Of a stretch of 64,000 nt of DNA, positions 254 through 56,612 are shown piece after piece. The stretch covers positions 62,001 through 126,000 of the forward strand of contig NZ_PRDS01000003.1 in assembly GCF_002927635.1 (NCBI RefSeq), read 5' to 3'. The position numbers were made by a program, and so were the translations under genes. This DNA comes from Albidovulum inexpectatum. Its GTDB lineage: Bacteria > Pseudomonadota > Alphaproteobacteria > Rhodobacterales > Rhodobacteraceae. The notes under the pieces are model-generated. The model worked only from the letters and a program-made list of their open reading frames with translations, did no database searches and was not told the origin of the DNA. The number at the start of each line of letters is the position of its first letter. Position 1 is the stretch's first letter.

Positions 254-2034
254 CTCGCACGCCTCTACGTCCTCTTGCGCGCATTCTGGCCGCCCGGGCA
301 AAGGGCGAAAATCCCGACGCGATCGAACGCGAGAATATCCGTCTTCGGCACGAACAGATGCGCGACAAGGCGCGGATGCGGGCCGAAAGCCGGCTTTTGA
401 TCCTGTCGGTTGCATTTGTCATGGGCTTTGGCCTTGTTGGCGCGCGGATGGCATCGCTTGCCGCCTCTGAACCGTCAGAGCCGCAGGTTGCTTCGCATGG
501 CGCGGGAATCGTCGCGCAGCGCGCCGATATCGTCGACCGACGCGGCCGCATTCTGGCGACGAACCTTCTGACCCATTCGCTGTATGCGCAGCCGCCGCTG
601 ATGGTCGATCCGCAGCGCGCGGCACACGAACTGGCCGCGATCTTCCCGGACCTGGACGAGGATCGGCTGCTGAAGGATTTCACCGGCAAGCGCAAGTTTC
701 TGTGGATCAAGCGCCGCATCTCGCCCGAGCAGATGCAGGCCGTGCACGAGATCGGCGAGCCGGGGCTTCTGTTCGGCCCGCGCGAAATGCGCCTGTATCC
801 GAACGGGCCGCTGGCAGCCCATGTTCTTGGCGGTGCGGGGTTCGGGCGCGAAGGTGTGCGCGCGGCGGAAATCGTCGGACGCGCGGGGGTGGAAAAGACG
901 TTCGATGCCTGGCTGCGCGACCCCGCCAATGCCGGCAAGCCCCTGCAGCTGTCTCTGGATCTGACCGTGCAGGCCACGGTCGAAGAGGTCCTGGACGCGG
1001 GCATGAAGCTGATGAACGCCAAGGGCGCGACCGCCATCCTGATGGATGCCCATAACGGCGAGATCGTGGCAATGGCCTCGCTGCCCGATTTCGATCCGAA
1101 CGATCGGCCCTCTCCGCCCGTGTCGGGCGACCCTTCGGACAGCCCGTTGTTCAACCGCGCCGTGCAGGGCCTTTACGAGCTTGGGTCGACCTTCAAGCTG
1201 TTTGCCATCGCGCAGGCCGTCGATATGGGGCTGGTCAACCCCGATACGATGATCGACACCAAGGGGCCCCTGGTCTGGGGGCGTTTCAAGATTCGCGACT
1301 TCCACAATTACGGGCCCCAGCTTTCCGTCACCGATGTTCTGGTCAAGTCCTCGAATATCGGGACGGCGCGCATCGCGCTGCAGATCGGTGCGGTCAAGCA
1401 GCAGGAATTCCTGCGCGCGCTGGGCATGTTCGATCCCACCCCCGTCGAGCTGGTCGAGGCGCCGGGCGCCAAGCCCCTGCGCCCCGAAAAATGGCCCGAG
1501 ATCACGACGATGACCGTTTCCTACGGGCATGGAATCGCGGCAAGCCCGCTGCATCTGGCGGCGGCCTATGCCTCGCTTGTCAACGGCGGCACGCGGATCA
1601 CGCCGACATTGCTACGTCGAGATCATGTCGAACCGGGGCCGCGAATCATCTCGGAGCGTACCTCGGCGATCCTGCGGGACATGCTGCGACAGGTCGTTGC
1701 GCGCGGCACGGCCAGCTTCGGCGACGTGCCGGGCTATTCCGTCGGCGGCAAGACCGGCACGGCCGACAAGCCGCTGCGCACGGGCAAGGGCTATGCCAAG
1801 GACAAGGTGATCGCCACCTTCGCTTCGGTGTTTCCGACCACCGATCCGAAATACGTCCTTGTCGTCTCGCTGGACGAACCGGTCGAGACTTCGGGCGCCG
1901 AGCCGCGCCGCACCGCCGGATGGACGGCGGTACCCGTCGCGGCCGAGATCATCCGGCGCACCGCGCCCTTGCTGGGCCTTCGTCCGGAACTTGAACCCGT
2001 GGCCGATGCCGGGGTAATACGCGTCCGCAACTGA
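250..2034 (+). CDS. ftsI: Peptidoglycan D,D-transpeptidase FtsI (PBP3)
   Basis: Septal transpeptidase that cross-links peptidoglycan stem peptides in the periplasm during division. The 594-residue product has a short Arg-rich cytoplasmic start, a membrane helix at about 55-75, a dimerisation domain, and a transpeptidase domain with all three active-site motifs: STFK (S313, K316), SSN (367-369) and KTG (501-503). I chose the ATG at 250 because it overlaps the ftsL stop and gives the expected N-terminus. An in-frame start at 67 would run through ftsL. First complete gene of the ftsL-ftsI-murE-murF-mraY operon. Confidence 0.95.
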
Positions 2035-2060: not shown

Positions 2061-3539
2061 ATGGCCGAAACAAAGACGCTTGCCGAGCTGGGCCTGACCG
2101 CACAGGGCGGGCGTGAGGCGCGCATAACGGGGCTGTCGGTGGACAGCCGGCAGGTCCGTCCCGGCCACCTGTTCGCGGCCCTGCCGGGCAGCACCATGCA
2201 TGGCGGCGAATTCATCCAATACGCATTGCGGATGGGTGCCGCGGCGATCCTGACCGACCGGGAAGGCGCCCGCATCGCCAGGGATGCGCTGGCCGGCGCG
2301 GATGCCGCGCTGATCGTCTCGGAAGACCCCCGGCAGGCGCTTGCCTGCGCCGCGGCGCTCTGGTTCGGCGCACAGCCCGAAACGATGGTCGCGGTCACGG
2401 GTACTTCGGGCAAGACATCGGTGGCCACGTTCACCCGTCAGATATGGCAGGCGCTGGGGCATTCGGCGATCAATCTGGGCACGATGGGCGTCCTGGGCGA
2501 TTTCGAGGCCCCTCTGGCCCATACCACGCCCGAACCGATCACCCTGCATCGCGTGCTGGCCGATGCCGCGCAGGCCGGCATCACCCATGCGGCAATGGAA
2601 GCTTCCAGTCACGGTCTTGACCAGCGGCGGCTTGACGGTGTGCGGCTGCAGGCCGCGGCCTTCACGAATTTCAGCCAGGATCATCTCGACTACCATGAGA
2701 CATTCGAGGCCTATTTCGCGGCCAAGGCTGGCCTGTTTGATCGCGTCCTGCCCAAGGACGGCATGGCCGTGGTCAATATCGACGACCCGCGCGGCCGCGA
2801 GATTCTGGAAATCGCGCGCGCGCGCGGCCAGCAGGTGATCACCGTGGGCCGCAATCCCGCGGCCGATCTGTCCATTGCCGCCCAGAGGTTCGATGCAACC
2901 GGGCAGGATCTGCGCTTCATGTGGAAGGGGCAGCCCCATCTTGTCCGGCTGGCGCTGATCGGCGGGTTCCAGGCCGAAAACGTCTTGGCCGCGGCGGGCC
3001 TGGCCATCGCCACGGGGGACGAGCCCGCGCGCGTATTCGCGACCCTGCCGGGCCTGACGACGGTGCGAGGGCGCATGCAGCTGGTCGCGCGCCGGGACAA
3101 CGGTGCGACCGTTTTCGTGGATTATTCGCACAAGCCCGGCGCTCTGGCGGCCGCGCTGCAATCCTTGCGCCCGCATGTCATGGGGCGCATCGTGGTGGTC
3201 TTTGGCGCGGGCGGGGATCGCGACCGGTCCAAGCGTCCGCTGATGGGAGAGGTTGCCGCGAAACACGCCGACCTGGTCATCGTGACCGACGACAATCCCA
3301 GAACCGAAGATCCCGCCTCGATCCGGGCCGAAGTCATGGCCGGCTGCCCCGAGGCCATCGAGGTCCCCGATCGGGCCGAGGCGATCCTGCGCGGCGTGGA
3401 CGCGCTGCTGCCGGGCGATGCGCTGCTGATCGCGGGCAAGGGGCATGAAACCGGCCAGATCATCGGCCATGATGTCTATCCCTTCGACGATGCCGAACAG
3501 GCCTCGGTCGCGGTGGCCGCTTTGGAGGGGCGCATCTGA
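2061..3539 (+). CDS. murE: UDP-MurNAc-L-Ala-D-Glu:meso-diaminopimelate ligase MurE
   Basis: Cytoplasmic ATP-dependent Mur ligase that adds meso-diaminopimelate to the UDP-MurNAc dipeptide. The 492-residue length is normal. The ATP loop GTSGKTS is at 114-120, and DNPR at 411-414 is the signature that selects diaminopimelate rather than lysine. The C-terminal ligase domain carries FVDYSHKPGAL and FGAGGDRDRSKRP. The stop overlaps the murF start (TGATG). The DNPR motif predicts ordinary Gram-negative peptidoglycan. Confidence 0.96.
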   Translation: MAETKTLAELGLTAQGGREARITGLSVDSRQVRPGHLFAALPGSTMHGGEFIQYALRMGAAAILTDREGARIARDALAGADAALIVSEDPRQALACAAALWFGAQPETMVAVTGTSGKTSVATFTRQIWQALGHSAINLGTMGVLGDFEAPLAHTTPEPITLHRVLADAAQAGITHAAMEASSHGLDQRRLDGVRLQAAAFTNFSQDHLDYHETFEAYFAAKAGLFDRVLPKDGMAVVNIDDPRGREILEIARARGQQVITVGRNPAADLSIAAQRFDATGQDLRFMWKGQPHLVRLALIGGFQAENVLAAAGLAIATGDEPARVFATLPGLTTVRGRMQLVARRDNGATVFVDYSHKPGALAAALQSLRPHVMGRIVVVFGAGGDRDRSKRPLMGEVAAKHADLVIVTDDNPRTEDPASIRAEVMAGCPEAIEVPDRAEAILRGVDALLPGDALLIAGKGHETGQIIGHDVYPFDDAEQASVAVAALEGRI

Positions 3540-6895: not shown

Positions 6896-7315
6896 ATGCA
6901 GCGCATATTCGTGATCTCGACCCGGGGGGCGGGGCTGTATGAATTCACCCAGGACATACGCAAGTTCTGTGGGCCACTTGGCACGGGGCTTCTGACGCTG
7001 TTCGTTCGCCACACATCCTGTTCGCTGCTGATCCAGGAGAATGCCGATCCCGAGGTGCGTGACGACCTGGCCGAATTCCTGCGTCGTCTGGTTCCCGACG
7101 CCGACGATGCCTCGATGCGCTGGCTGCGCCATACCTATGAAGGCCCGGACGACATGCCGGCGCATATCAAGGCCGCGCTTTTGCCGGTGAGTATCTCGAT
7201 CCCGGTGGCAGAGGGGCGCCCGGCTCTGGGAACATGGCAGGGAGTCTACCTGTTCGAACATCGCCGAGCGCCCCATGACCGTCAGGTGGTGGCTCATTTT
7301 GTCCGCTCGACCTGA
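6896..7315 (+). CDS. YjbQ family protein (UPF0047; secondary thiamine-phosphate synthase)
   Basis: A 139-residue protein of the widespread YjbQ/UPF0047 family, small enzymes with weak thiamine-phosphate synthase activity whose main role is unclear. Family signatures are HTSCSLLIQENADPEV, the HTYEGPDDMPAHIK region and the C-terminal GTWQGVYLFEHR. It starts two bases after the preceding gene with a purine-rich ribosome site, so the two are probably cotranscribed. Confidence 0.9.
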   Translation: MQRIFVISTRGAGLYEFTQDIRKFCGPLGTGLLTLFVRHTSCSLLIQENADPEVRDDLAEFLRRLVPDADDASMRWLRHTYEGPDDMPAHIKAALLPVSISIPVAEGRPALGTWQGVYLFEHRRAPHDRQVVAHFVRST

Positions 7316-9856: not shown

Positions 9857-10017
9857 GCTTGCTCTCCTTTTGCACCAACTTTGCCTCGCGTTGCTGCGGC
9901 TTCAAGTCCGGCCGTCGCGGAAGTTCGTGAATTCTTGCGCAGGCATTGTGCATCGGAATCGCCATGCCGATGCCAGCCGGCTGTTGACCCGGTCCTTCGC
10001 GCGCGCTATCGCCTGCG

Positions 10018-10072
10018 GCGTGGCGATTTGTTCACCGGATTGCGGGCCACGTTAAAGATGCCGCTAAAGAGG
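10018..10072 (+). promoter_or_regulatory. SAM-II riboswitch (metA motif) upstream of metZ
   Basis: The stretch has the SAM-II layout. GTGGC (10020-10024) pairs with GCCAC (10046-10050) as P1. The conserved GATTTG and CCGGATTGC lie inside. The 3' arm GTTAAAGATGCCGCTAAAGAGG matches the conserved TAAA and GCTAAA elements of the pseudoknot. SAM-II is known mainly from alphaproteobacteria before metA, metC and metZ. An intrinsic terminator follows 13 bases later, then metZ. SAM binding would lower methionine synthesis. Confidence 0.88.
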
Positions 10073-10084
10073 TAGGAGCAGGAC

Positions 10085-10112
10085 GCCCCGCCTTTACCGG
10101 TGGGGCTTTTTT
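10085..10112 (+). terminator. Intrinsic terminator between SAM-II aptamer and metZ
   Basis: An eight-pair stem, GCCCCGCC (10085-10092) with GGTGGGGC (10099-10106, one G-T pair), has a six-base loop and is followed by six T (10107-10112). Because it lies between the aptamer and the metZ start it is a plausible attenuator rather than an end-of-gene terminator. Confidence 0.85.
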
Positions 10113-54242: not shown

Positions 54243-54974
54243 ATGGCCGACATAAGATGCACAGACTGTCCGTTGCGCAAATGCGACCTCTTCGTGCCCT
54301 TCTCGGATACCGAGATCATCGCGCAGCAAAGGTTCAAGTCGGGCGAACTGACCGCCGATCGCGGGACCGTCCTGCTGATGGAGGGGTCGTCCTCTCCCCA
54401 GCTCTTTACCGTGCTGGAAGGGATGGGCCTTCGTTACAAGACTCTTGAAGATGGCAGCCGGCAGGTTCTGAACTTTGTCTTTCCTGGCGACTTCATTGGT
54501 CTTCAGGCCGGCGTGATGGGAGAGATGCGCCATTCGGTGGAAGCCGTCACGCGCATGCGGCTGTGCGTGTTTCGTCGTCAGGACATATGGCAATTGTTTC
54601 GCGAAACACCTGAACGCGCCTATGACCTGACCTGGGTCGCGGCGGTCGAGGAACATTTCCTGGGTGAGGCCGTCGCCACCTTGGGACAGCGCAGCGCGAT
54701 GGAGCGGATTGCCTGGGCTTTCCTGCGCATCTTCCGCCGGCTGGAGGCGCTTGGCCTGTCCACCGGCACATCCGTGCCTCTGCCCTTTCGGCAGCAGGAT
54801 CTGGCGGATGCGCTGGGCCTGTCGGTGGTTCATGCCAACAAGACGCTCAAGCGGCTCGAGGAGCGGCAGCTTGCATCATGGCGCGGAGGGCGGCTGAGCA
54901 TCGGCGATTTCAAGGAACTTGCGCGGATCGGTCTGACCGATGACGAGCCCCCGGCGAAGCGGCCGCTGATGTAG
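54243..54974 (+). CDS. Crp/Fnr-family transcriptional regulator
   Basis: A 243-residue protein with an N-terminal Cys cluster (CTDCPLRKC, residues 6-14), a cyclic-nucleotide-type sensor barrel (GTVLLMEGSSSPQLFTVLEG; FVFPGDFIGLQAG) and a C-terminal winged helix (FRQQDLADALGLSVVHANKT). The short Cys cluster recalls the N-terminus of Fnr/FixK relatives but lacks the usual further Cys, so an iron-sulfur site is unproven. No EcfG site is seen upstream. Confidence 0.88.
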   Translation: MADIRCTDCPLRKCDLFVPFSDTEIIAQQRFKSGELTADRGTVLLMEGSSSPQLFTVLEGMGLRYKTLEDGSRQVLNFVFPGDFIGLQAGVMGEMRHSVEAVTRMRLCVFRRQDIWQLFRETPERAYDLTWVAAVEEHFLGEAVATLGQRSAMERIAWAFLRIFRRLEALGLSTGTSVPLPFRQQDLADALGLSVVHANKTLKRLEERQLASWRGGRLSIGDFKELARIGLTDDEPPAKRPLM

Positions 54975-54989
54975 AATGGCGCGCCCAAG

Positions 54990-55125
54990 CGAGCGCCGAG
55001 AACTGGATCGCGCCGGCATATCGTCATGTCTGCCTGTCGTGCCCTGCCGCCCGAACGCTCGTCTGTTTTCGTCGCATGGATCTTGCCCTCGGTGCTTGAA
55101 GCGGTGCCGGGCGGGTTCCCATATC
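54990..55125 (-). ncRNA. Candidate EcfG-driven small RNA (or 17-codon peptide) with no recognised gene
   Basis: A perfect EcfG promoter (55154-55130, minus strand) points leftward into the 265-base gap beyond the Crp/Fnr gene, where I recognise no protein gene. The only short frame with a plausible start encodes a 17-residue basic peptide ending at 55024. GC-rich inverted segments near 54990-55020 could end a transcript. EcfG-dependent small RNAs are known in other alphaproteobacteria (for example GsrN in Caulobacter). The extent given is a guess. Confidence 0.35.
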
Positions 55126-55129
55126 GATA

Positions 55130-55154
55130 AACGACAGGACGGGCGGCCGGTTCC
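55130..55154 (-). promoter_or_regulatory. Orphan EcfG-type stress promoter
   Basis: On the minus strand GGAAC (55154-55150), 16 bases, then CGTT (55133-55130). It lies back to back with the host-attachment operon promoter: the two -35 boxes form the palindrome GGTTCCGCCGGAACC. Confidence 0.75.
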
Positions 55155-55157
55155 GCC

Positions 55158-55182
55158 GGAACCGGCCGCGCCCCGGGACGTT
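55158..55182 (+). promoter_or_regulatory. EcfG-type stress promoter of the host-attachment/MgtC/DUF4112 operon
   Basis: GGAAC (55158-55162), 16 bases, then CGTT (55179-55182), 58 bases before the first start. Confidence 0.85.
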
Positions 55183-55239
55183 GGAAACCAGACATGATGC
55201 CGGGATCTTCCCGGCCTGACGGAGAGGGAGACAGGTTTC

Positions 55240-55701
55240 ATGACCAGAACCAGGCTGAAGGATGGTGACTGGATCGTCGTTGCCGATGGCGAAAAGGCGC
55301 TGTTCCTGCGCAATCTGACCGATCACGAGAACCCGCATTTCCAGGTCGTGCGCGTGAAGGAGCAGGACAACCCGCCGAACCGCGACCAGGCGACGGATCG
55401 TCCCGGCCGGATGCCCGATGCGGGTCCGGGCCAGCGTTCGGCCCTGGACGAAGCCGACTTCCATCGCCTGGCCAAGGAACGCTTTGCCGAGGATCTGGCC
55501 GAGATCCTGTACAAGCGGGCGGTGGCGGGCGCCTATGACCGGCTGATCGTGGTCGCCAGCCCGATGGTTCTGGGCGTCCTGCGCGAGAACTGGCACGACG
55601 AGGTCAGAAAGCGCCTGGTCGCCGAGATCCCCAAGACCCTGACCAATCACCCGATCGACGAGATCGAGCGCATGGTCAAGGAAAGCCTCGACGAAGCCTG
55701 A
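55240..55701 (+). CDS. Host attachment family protein (baeRF-like)
   Basis: A 153-residue soluble protein of the family annotated as host attachment protein (AtsE-like), related to archaeal/eukaryotic release factor-1 domains. Conserved parts are WIVVADGEKALFLRNL, FHRLAKERFAEDLAEILYKR, AYDRLIVVASPMVLGVLREN and VAEIPKTLTNHPIDEIERMV. The biochemical role is not settled. The family is often stress-induced. First gene of a three-gene operon under an EcfG promoter. Confidence 0.85.
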   Translation: MTRTRLKDGDWIVVADGEKALFLRNLTDHENPHFQVVRVKEQDNPPNRDQATDRPGRMPDAGPGQRSALDEADFHRLAKERFAEDLAEILYKRAVAGAYDRLIVVASPMVLGVLRENWHDEVRKRLVAEIPKTLTNHPIDEIERMVKESLDEA

Positions 55702-55704
55702 ACC

Positions 55705-56184
55705 ATGGGGCCGATCGAAACAGACGCGTTTGTCTGGCGGCTTGGCGCGGCGATCCTGTGCGGGCTGATCCTTGGGATCGACCGCGAGCTGCGCAACAAG
55801 CCTTTGGGGCTGCGTTCCTACGTCATCGTCTGTGCCGCATCGGCGGCCTGGGCGATGACCGCGATCGACTTCGCCTTTCAGATGGCCCGCGCCCAGCCGG
55901 ACCTTGCCGCCGACCCGACCCGGGTGATTCAGGGGCTGGTCGGCGCGATCGGCTTTCTTGGCGCGGGCGCGATCCTTTCGCGCAAGCAGGACGGCCATTT
56001 GAAGGGAGTCGCGTCGGGCGCCACGATATGGGCGTCGGGTGCGGTCGGCATGGCGTGCGGCACGGGCCAGATCGTCCATGCGCTGATCGTGTCGGTGGCA
56101 TTGGCGCTGGTTCTGAACCTGTATGAATTCGCCGTCCGGCGTCTTGGTCCAGCAAATGCGTCGATGCCGAGGGACGACCGATGA
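55705..56184 (+). CDS. MgtC/SapB family membrane protein
   Basis: A 159-residue protein with four or five membrane helices and the MgtC signature: RLGAAILCGLILGIDRELRN, KPLGLRSYVIVCAASAAWAM, GLVGAIGFLGAGAILSRKQD and GVASGATIWASGAVGMACGT. It lacks the long C-terminal ACT-like domain of MgtC proper, as in SapB. Family members support growth under magnesium limitation or envelope stress. It begins three bases after the previous stop. Confidence 0.9.
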   Translation: MGPIETDAFVWRLGAAILCGLILGIDRELRNKPLGLRSYVIVCAASAAWAMTAIDFAFQMARAQPDLAADPTRVIQGLVGAIGFLGAGAILSRKQDGHLKGVASGATIWASGAVGMACGTGQIVHALIVSVALALVLNLYEFAVRRLGPANASMPRDDR

Positions 56185-56612
56185 GCGACGCGAAGACGCA
56201 AGCCCCCATGCAGGAGCCCGGTCATGACCGCGCTCTGATCCGCGCCCGCAGGCTGGCCCGGCTGCTGGACGCGCGACTGGGCATCCCCGGGACAAGGCTG
56301 CGGTTCGGGCTGGATTCGATCCTGGGGCTTGTCCCCGGCTTGGGCGACGTCGCAACCCTGGCTGCGGGGGCTTATATCCTGCATGCAGGCTGGAGGCTGG
56401 GCGTGCCATGGCCCGGTCTTGCCCGGATGGCGGGCAACCTCGCGCTGGACGCGGTGGTGGGCTCGGTTCCCCTGCTTGGGGACGTTTTCGATTTCGCGTT
56501 CAAGGCAAATCTGCGCAACGTCGCCGTGATCGAACGCCATCTGGCCCAGTGTTCCGGCCTCGACGCGCGCGGGCCGCGACCGGGCGCGATGGGCTATTCC
56601 TCGTCCGACTGA
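56181..56612 (+). CDS. DUF4112 domain protein
   Basis: A 143-residue protein with the DUF4112 pattern: ARRLARLLDARLGIPGTRLR, FGLDSILGLVPGLGDVATLA and LDAVVGSVPLLGDVFDFAFK followed by NLRNVAVIERHL. Two short hydrophobic segments suggest membrane association. Function unknown. It overlaps the MgtC stop by four bases, and its own end overlaps the convergent channel gene by 19 bases. Confidence 0.85.
   Translation: MSDAKTQAPMQEPGHDRALIRARRLARLLDARLGIPGTRLRFGLDSILGLVPGLGDVATLAAGAYILHAGWRLGVPWPGLARMAGNLALDAVVGSVPLLGDVFDFAFKANLRNVAVIERHLAQCSGLDARGPRPGAMGYSSSD

Follow-up and report, generated by a model that had tools for sequence, protein, structure and literature searches.

The window, i.e. the whole stretch of 64,000 nucleotides that was analysed, shows a stress-response island with matches to an EcfG-type sigma factor, NepR, PhyR, a HisKA_2 histidine kinase, CsbD and other Pfam families. 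The locus under study lies in this island and contains the genes of a Crp/Fnr-type regulator, a host-attachment/baeRF family 12 protein and an MgtC-family protein, with a gap downstream of the regulator gene (Table 1). The host-attachment protein matches PF18856 with 172.5 bits (cut-off 27.7) and PF10116 with 134.2 bits (cut-off 26.7). According to NCBIfam, the Crp/Fnr regulator reaches 75 of the 300 bits needed for the FnrL cut-off and is therefore far below it. Furthermore, each of the 11 orthologous Fnr loci of congeners (L093-L103) has a PhyR gene in its flank, and the regulator is an unnamed member with a link to the stress island. Between PhyR and Fnr, six of these congeners (L095-L100) show an EcfG motif before a gene which by eye is Dps-like; such a gene is missing from this place in the window.

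Table 1. Coordinates of the features at the locus, of the second copy on contig C4 and of the RNA candidates in congeners.
Feature	Sequence	Position	Strand	Observation
Crp/Fnr-type regulator	window	54243..54974	+	Pfam/NCBIfam; convergent with the orphan promoter
Gap, breakpoint to Fnr stop	window	54975..55078	-	lacks any trace of the 67-codon gene; neither excess RNA structure nor a strong terminator
17-codon frame	window	55077..55024	-	starts 2 nt past the breakpoint; tail of open frame 55024-56409 (-)
Initial ~45 nt of the predicted minus transcript	window	55079..55123	-	common to the leader of the 67-codon gene on C4
Duplicated segment (bidirectional promoter and host-attachment/baeRF12 gene)	window	55079..55709		alignment with C4
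Orphan sigma-EcfG-type promoter motif, GGAAC-N16-CGTT	window	55130..55154	-	25/25 identical to motif at C4:294798-294822, same genome
EcfG motif of the host-attachment gene	window	55158..55182	+	C4 copy: -35 and -10 unchanged; spacer with 2 substitutions and 1 indel
Host-attachment/baeRF family 12 protein, 153 aa	window	55240..55701	+	Pfam
MgtC-family protein	window	55705..56184	+	duplicated segment extends into its first five bases, ATGGG (right-hand end)
67-codon gene (p66)	C4 (L001)	6900-7103	+	open frame; good ribosome-binding site by eye
Three-hairpin C-rich-loop RNA candidate	L101 (G010)	1361-1496	+	EcfG motif, then RNA
Three-hairpin C-rich-loop RNA candidate	L102 (G014)	2363..2227	-	EcfG motif, then RNA
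Three-hairpin C-rich-loop RNA candidate	L103 (G003)	2381..2240	-	EcfG motif, then RNA
Weaker RNA candidate	L094 (G002)	1173-1324	+	EcfG motif, then RNA

In Alphaproteobacteria, promoters of the general stress response sigma factor, sigma-EcfG, have the consensus GGAAC-N16-CGTT. A pattern scan of the window found a perfect match on the minus strand, GGAACCGGCCGCCCGTCCTGTCGTT, back to back with the plus-strand motif GGAACCGGCCGCGCCCCGGGACGTT in front of the host-attachment gene. The -35 elements of both motifs together form the palindrome GGTTCCGCCGGAACC, and the minus motif leads toward the Fnr stop codon, with a predicted transcription start near 55123. This arrangement of motifs, palindrome and direction agrees with the preliminary description of the locus. 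The minus motif shows both elements of a sigma-EcfG promoter, GGAAC and CGTT, at a distance of 16 nt, within the 16-17 nt of such promoters, and like other such promoters of Alphaproteobacteria it lies in an EcfG/NepR/PhyR island; however, no gene follows it.

The window contains 12 EcfG motifs in relation to a shuffle mean of 1.71, and 12 or more were found in none of 100 shuffles (spacer 15-18). Three further pairs of these motifs, on opposite strands and leading outward, are located in the stress island. Across the whole genome the motif is not enriched (58 occurrences versus 55 of the reversed pattern, spacer 16-17), and therefore a single perfect match is weak evidence. Nevertheless, because motifs cluster in the stress-response island and an identical copy of the orphan site precedes a gene, the site is a credible sigma-EcfG-type promoter on sequence grounds, and it possibly fires.

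The identical copy of this 25-bp motif, also back to back with a second motif, was found by a genome-wide motif scan on contig C4 of the same genome. It belongs to a longer duplication: window positions 55079-55709 recur at C4:294242-294873 (positions 6874-6243 of stretch L001) with 98% identity, i.e. 12 differences in 632 aligned columns. Nine of the differences fall within the 161 noncoding bases that precede the gene, and three within the 462-base host-attachment gene itself. None of the 25 bases of the orphan promoter differs between the copies, against nine of the 161 noncoding bases, although these numbers are too small to show selection. On C4, 76 nt separate the motif from a 67-codon open frame downstream of it, and of these the 25 nt next to the start codon of this gene lie outside the shared block; in the window, the gene is absent from the position directly downstream of the motif. 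The genome shows one good copy of the 67-codon gene, that of C4 (100% identity; next match E 0.05). Searches of 394 family genomes, 22 genus genomes and plasmid records gave no further locus with the 632-bp segment, and the best match of the host-attachment gene outside this genome has 72% DNA identity (394 family genomes), while the best match of its protein in the 22 genus genomes has 61% identity.

Loci with the host-attachment gene were collected from 37 places in named genome records (one of them, L059, is a match of 31 residues only), from genus and family genomes and from neighbourhood stretches; the named loci suggest that the genomes belong to Rhodobacteraceae. With a threshold of E <= 1e-5, after removal of rows sharing their first 150 bases and leaving out the weaker matches L076, L078 and L082, a relative of the 67-codon gene is present in 50 distinct loci, including the C4 locus of this genome; two of the loci come from the neighbourhood stretches. 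Where a locus was retrieved through the host-attachment protein, or through window DNA with that gene, the neighbourhood is given by construction, but strand and motif are not. The 67-codon gene is located upstream of the host-attachment gene and on the same strand in 49 of the 50 loci, and is divergent only in this genome. An EcfG motif (GGAAC, spacer 15-17, CGTT or GGTT) was found within 160 bp upstream of the gene in 32 of the 50 loci, in relation to two of 50 for the reversed motif; in the relatives alone the motif is present in 31 of 49. Its distance to the start codon ranges between 47 and 88 bp in the 31 motif-bearing loci of relatives, and is 101 bp on C4. A DUF4112 gene precedes both the 67-codon and the host-attachment genes in L050-L057 and L113, and therefore the 67-codon gene is not necessarily the first of the unit. 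Some host-attachment loci do not show the 67-codon gene in the examined flank, and some of these, such as L027, L042, L044 and L047, have an EcfG motif of their own. Searches of Pfam and NCBIfam at E 0.1 gave no match for the 67-codon protein; it is a conserved, unnamed protein which the upstream motifs tie to the EcfG regulon. The C4 copy thus contains the same two genes and upstream EcfG motif as the unit of the relatives (EcfG motif, 67-codon gene, host-attachment/baeRF12 gene); however, the two genes are divergent on C4 and the 67-codon gene is missing from the window copy.

These data bear on the possibility that the minus motif is not a promoter, in which case its -35 palindrome would serve the host-attachment promoter as an operator or hairpin, and its -10 element would be due to chance. 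The absence of genome-wide enrichment is in line with this reading, and the palindrome supplies half of a second motif for free, but the same 25 bp precede a gene whose relatives carry the motif in most loci, and the other outward pairs of the island repeat the arrangement, so that we consider it unlikely.

The preliminary description placed in the gap no recognised gene except a 17-codon frame. The gap is confirmed, while the frame forms the end of a longer open frame on the same strand. Beyond the breakpoint (55079), neither the DNA (p 0.83) nor any of three protein frames (p 0.07-0.35) showed a remnant of the 67-codon gene, and a decayed copy of this gene was therefore rejected. A second genomic copy of the gap was not found beyond the 52 shared bases (next match E 0.07). 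Expression of the 17-codon peptide from the orphan promoter could be suggested by the position of its ATG, approximately 46 nt from the predicted start site; however, no clear ribosome-binding site is seen by eye, the frame belongs to a long antisense frame and its product shows no detectable relation to the 67-codon protein (p 0.35), which makes this explanation highly improbable.

The preliminary description also proposed that the orphan promoter drives a stress small RNA, and here its promoter half stands while its RNA half does not. Folding of three minus-strand stretches of the window gave z values of +0.77, +0.91 and +0.48 in relation to shuffles, i.e. no excess structure, and the terminator search gave one weak site (54860..54846), inside the Fnr gene, where shuffles give 1.2. 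At curated thresholds, the only Rfam match in the window, and thus none in the gap, is a SAM-alpha riboswitch at 10010-10088 on the plus strand (RF00521, 58.8 bits); permissive thresholds gave five matches in 54600-55300, all far under their gathering scores.

GsrN is a small RNA of Caulobacter controlled by sigma-T, with a 5' hairpin that exposes a C-rich loop, and its homologues are typically located near the EcfG/NepR/PhyR genes (PMC5869019). The same paper places the homologues in Caulobacteraceae, rhizobia and their kin, and nowhere in its text is Rhodobacter named (PMC5869019). The window shares with the GsrN locus an EcfG-type promoter close to the core genes of the stress response, but differs from it in that its minus strand shows no 5' hairpin with an exposed C-rich loop, no excess structure and no strong terminator. 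No EcfG-controlled small RNA of Rhodobacteraceae was found in the literature, judged by title and with subscription journals mostly outside the coverage, so that novelty is unproven, and no description of gsrN in connection with Rhodobacteraceae was found in the literature covered.

The equivalent place was then compared in relatives. Matches to the Fnr gene were found in 107 of 394 family genomes at E <= 1e-60, and loci were taken from the best 30 of these; together with the genus, excluding eight genus rows of approximately 30-34% identity, 41 Fnr loci were examined, 12 of the genus (this genome included) and 29 further loci of the family; one of the 41 has a flank of 58 bp only. In nine of the 41 loci, among them the window, an EcfG motif within 500 bp points toward Fnr; the reversed motif is present in none. 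In three congeners (L101-L103), and weakly in a fourth (L094), this motif leads into a candidate structured RNA of about 110 nt, located just downstream of the Crp/Fnr gene and facing it. The motif stands 137-161 bp from the Fnr stop codon in L101-L103 and 325 bp in L094. In the first three loci, the predicted first hairpin has the loop AUGUCCCUUUG, AUGUCCCCUUG or UUGUCCCCUUG and is followed by a second and then by a strong third hairpin, with seven U after the third in L103; the loop in L094 is UGUGUCCCC. Cut at the third hairpin, the folding z values are -5.24 (L101), -3.80 (L102), -4.80 (L103) and -4.36 (L094). When 150 nt with more downstream DNA are folded, the best fold of L102 and L103 does not contain the first hairpin, which speaks slightly against that hairpin. 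Read by eye, the third hairpin shows two two-sided changes between L102 and L103 (U-A/G-C and G-C/A-U), and the second hairpins of these two loci differ in sequence but pair in both. Pairwise similarity among L101, L102 and L103 was significant in each case (p 0.002), and L094 was similar to L101 (p 0.008) and L102 (p 0.006) but not to L103 (p 0.86).

A covariance model (R1) was built from the first 50 nt of L101-L103 only, with the structure supplied by hand; L094 was kept out since early alignments put its hairpins out of register. In the 22 genus genomes, strong matches were limited to L101-L103 (next best E 0.0035), and in the 394 family genomes, which include one of the three source genomes, only that one was recovered (next best E 0.001). 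No EcfG motif stands just upstream of the 17 weaker genus matches that were checked, out of 25, nor is one in place at the five weaker family matches. With R1, the gap gave no match and the rest of the window none under E 0.6, and the gap showed no similarity to the candidates of L101-L103 and L094 (p 0.58-0.96). Elsewhere in this genome, the best R1 match (E 0.066, on C2) lacks an upstream EcfG motif and was rejected. The loci L093, L154, L156 and L158 also show an EcfG motif facing Fnr, without such an RNA: the motifs of L156 and L158 appear by eye to be 3' ends of neighbouring coding frames, and that of L093 is followed by a frame for a small protein which by eye resembles entericidin. The RNA candidate is narrow in distribution and distinct from the window, and it is closer to GsrN than the window is. 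If real, it would extend GsrN-like, EcfG-controlled regulation to Rhodobacteraceae, and it is a more interesting lead than the stranded promoter.

The small-RNA idea thus fits the locus in relatives and fails in the window, where structure, terminator, Rfam and the comparison with relatives led to its rejection. A functional, stress-induced small RNA similar to GsrN, acting in trans or antisense to the Fnr 3' end, would explain a perfect motif within a stress-response island, and the candidates behind an EcfG motif in relatives and the usual neighbourhood of GsrN homologues are in its favour. Against it, besides the negative searches, the identical motif precedes a protein gene on C4, and we regard it as improbable. 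A broader version is a long shot: the genus would have a stress-RNA slot downstream of Fnr, filled in three or four congeners by an EcfG-driven, GsrN-like RNA of about 110 nt with three hairpins and a GUCCC(C)-type loop, and the window would be this slot with the RNA body replaced, its stress-induced convergent transcript still tuning Fnr.

The orphan site is instead probably the stranded outward half of a duplicated bidirectional sigma-EcfG promoter. A segment of 0.63 kb, with the two-way promoter and the host-attachment gene, is present twice in the genome. On C4, the outward promoter would transcribe the 67-codon gene under stress; in the window, only approximately 45 nt of the shared segment follow the predicted start site, which would leave the promoter stranded. 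If it fires, it would give a stretch of RNA that is neither translated nor structured and converges with the Fnr mRNA, and this RNA would most likely have no function of its own. A perfect sigma-factor motif beside nothing can therefore arise with a duplicated segment, which calls for caution in promoter-based prediction of small RNAs, and we suggest searching the same genome for a second copy of such motifs.

That the window shows a promoter without product holds for either direction of copying, but if the orphan is to count as a relic of the promoter of the 67-codon gene, C4 or a common source that already contained this gene must be the older. A history compatible with the stranded promoter, to which we give somewhat less than an even chance, is that the segment was copied from the window to C4, where the 67-codon gene captured the outward half, which replaced its own promoter; the orphan would then have had some earlier role. 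In line with this, the segment ends in ATGGG, the MgtC start, in both copies, the MgtC genes of two relatives also begin with ATGGG, and the motif-to-start distance on C4 is the longest of the 32 motif-bearing loci. However, the five shared bases may be due to chance or microhomology, and the nearest two MgtC relatives (G276 and G160) show no host-attachment gene in approximately 1.5 kb upstream. Because these two carry the order MgtC, small gene, DUF4112 without it, the host-attachment gene looks inserted in the window. The unshared leader of the 67-codon gene on C4 resembles the leaders of its relatives solely through the ribosome-binding site.

The small gene between MgtC and DUF4112 was seen in the two nearest MgtC relatives (L185 and L186) in comparison with window positions 55705-56612. 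A relative of this gene is located on C4 (L001, 5961-6149), beside the second host-attachment copy, and for this reason both loci, that of the window and that of C4, have been rearranged.
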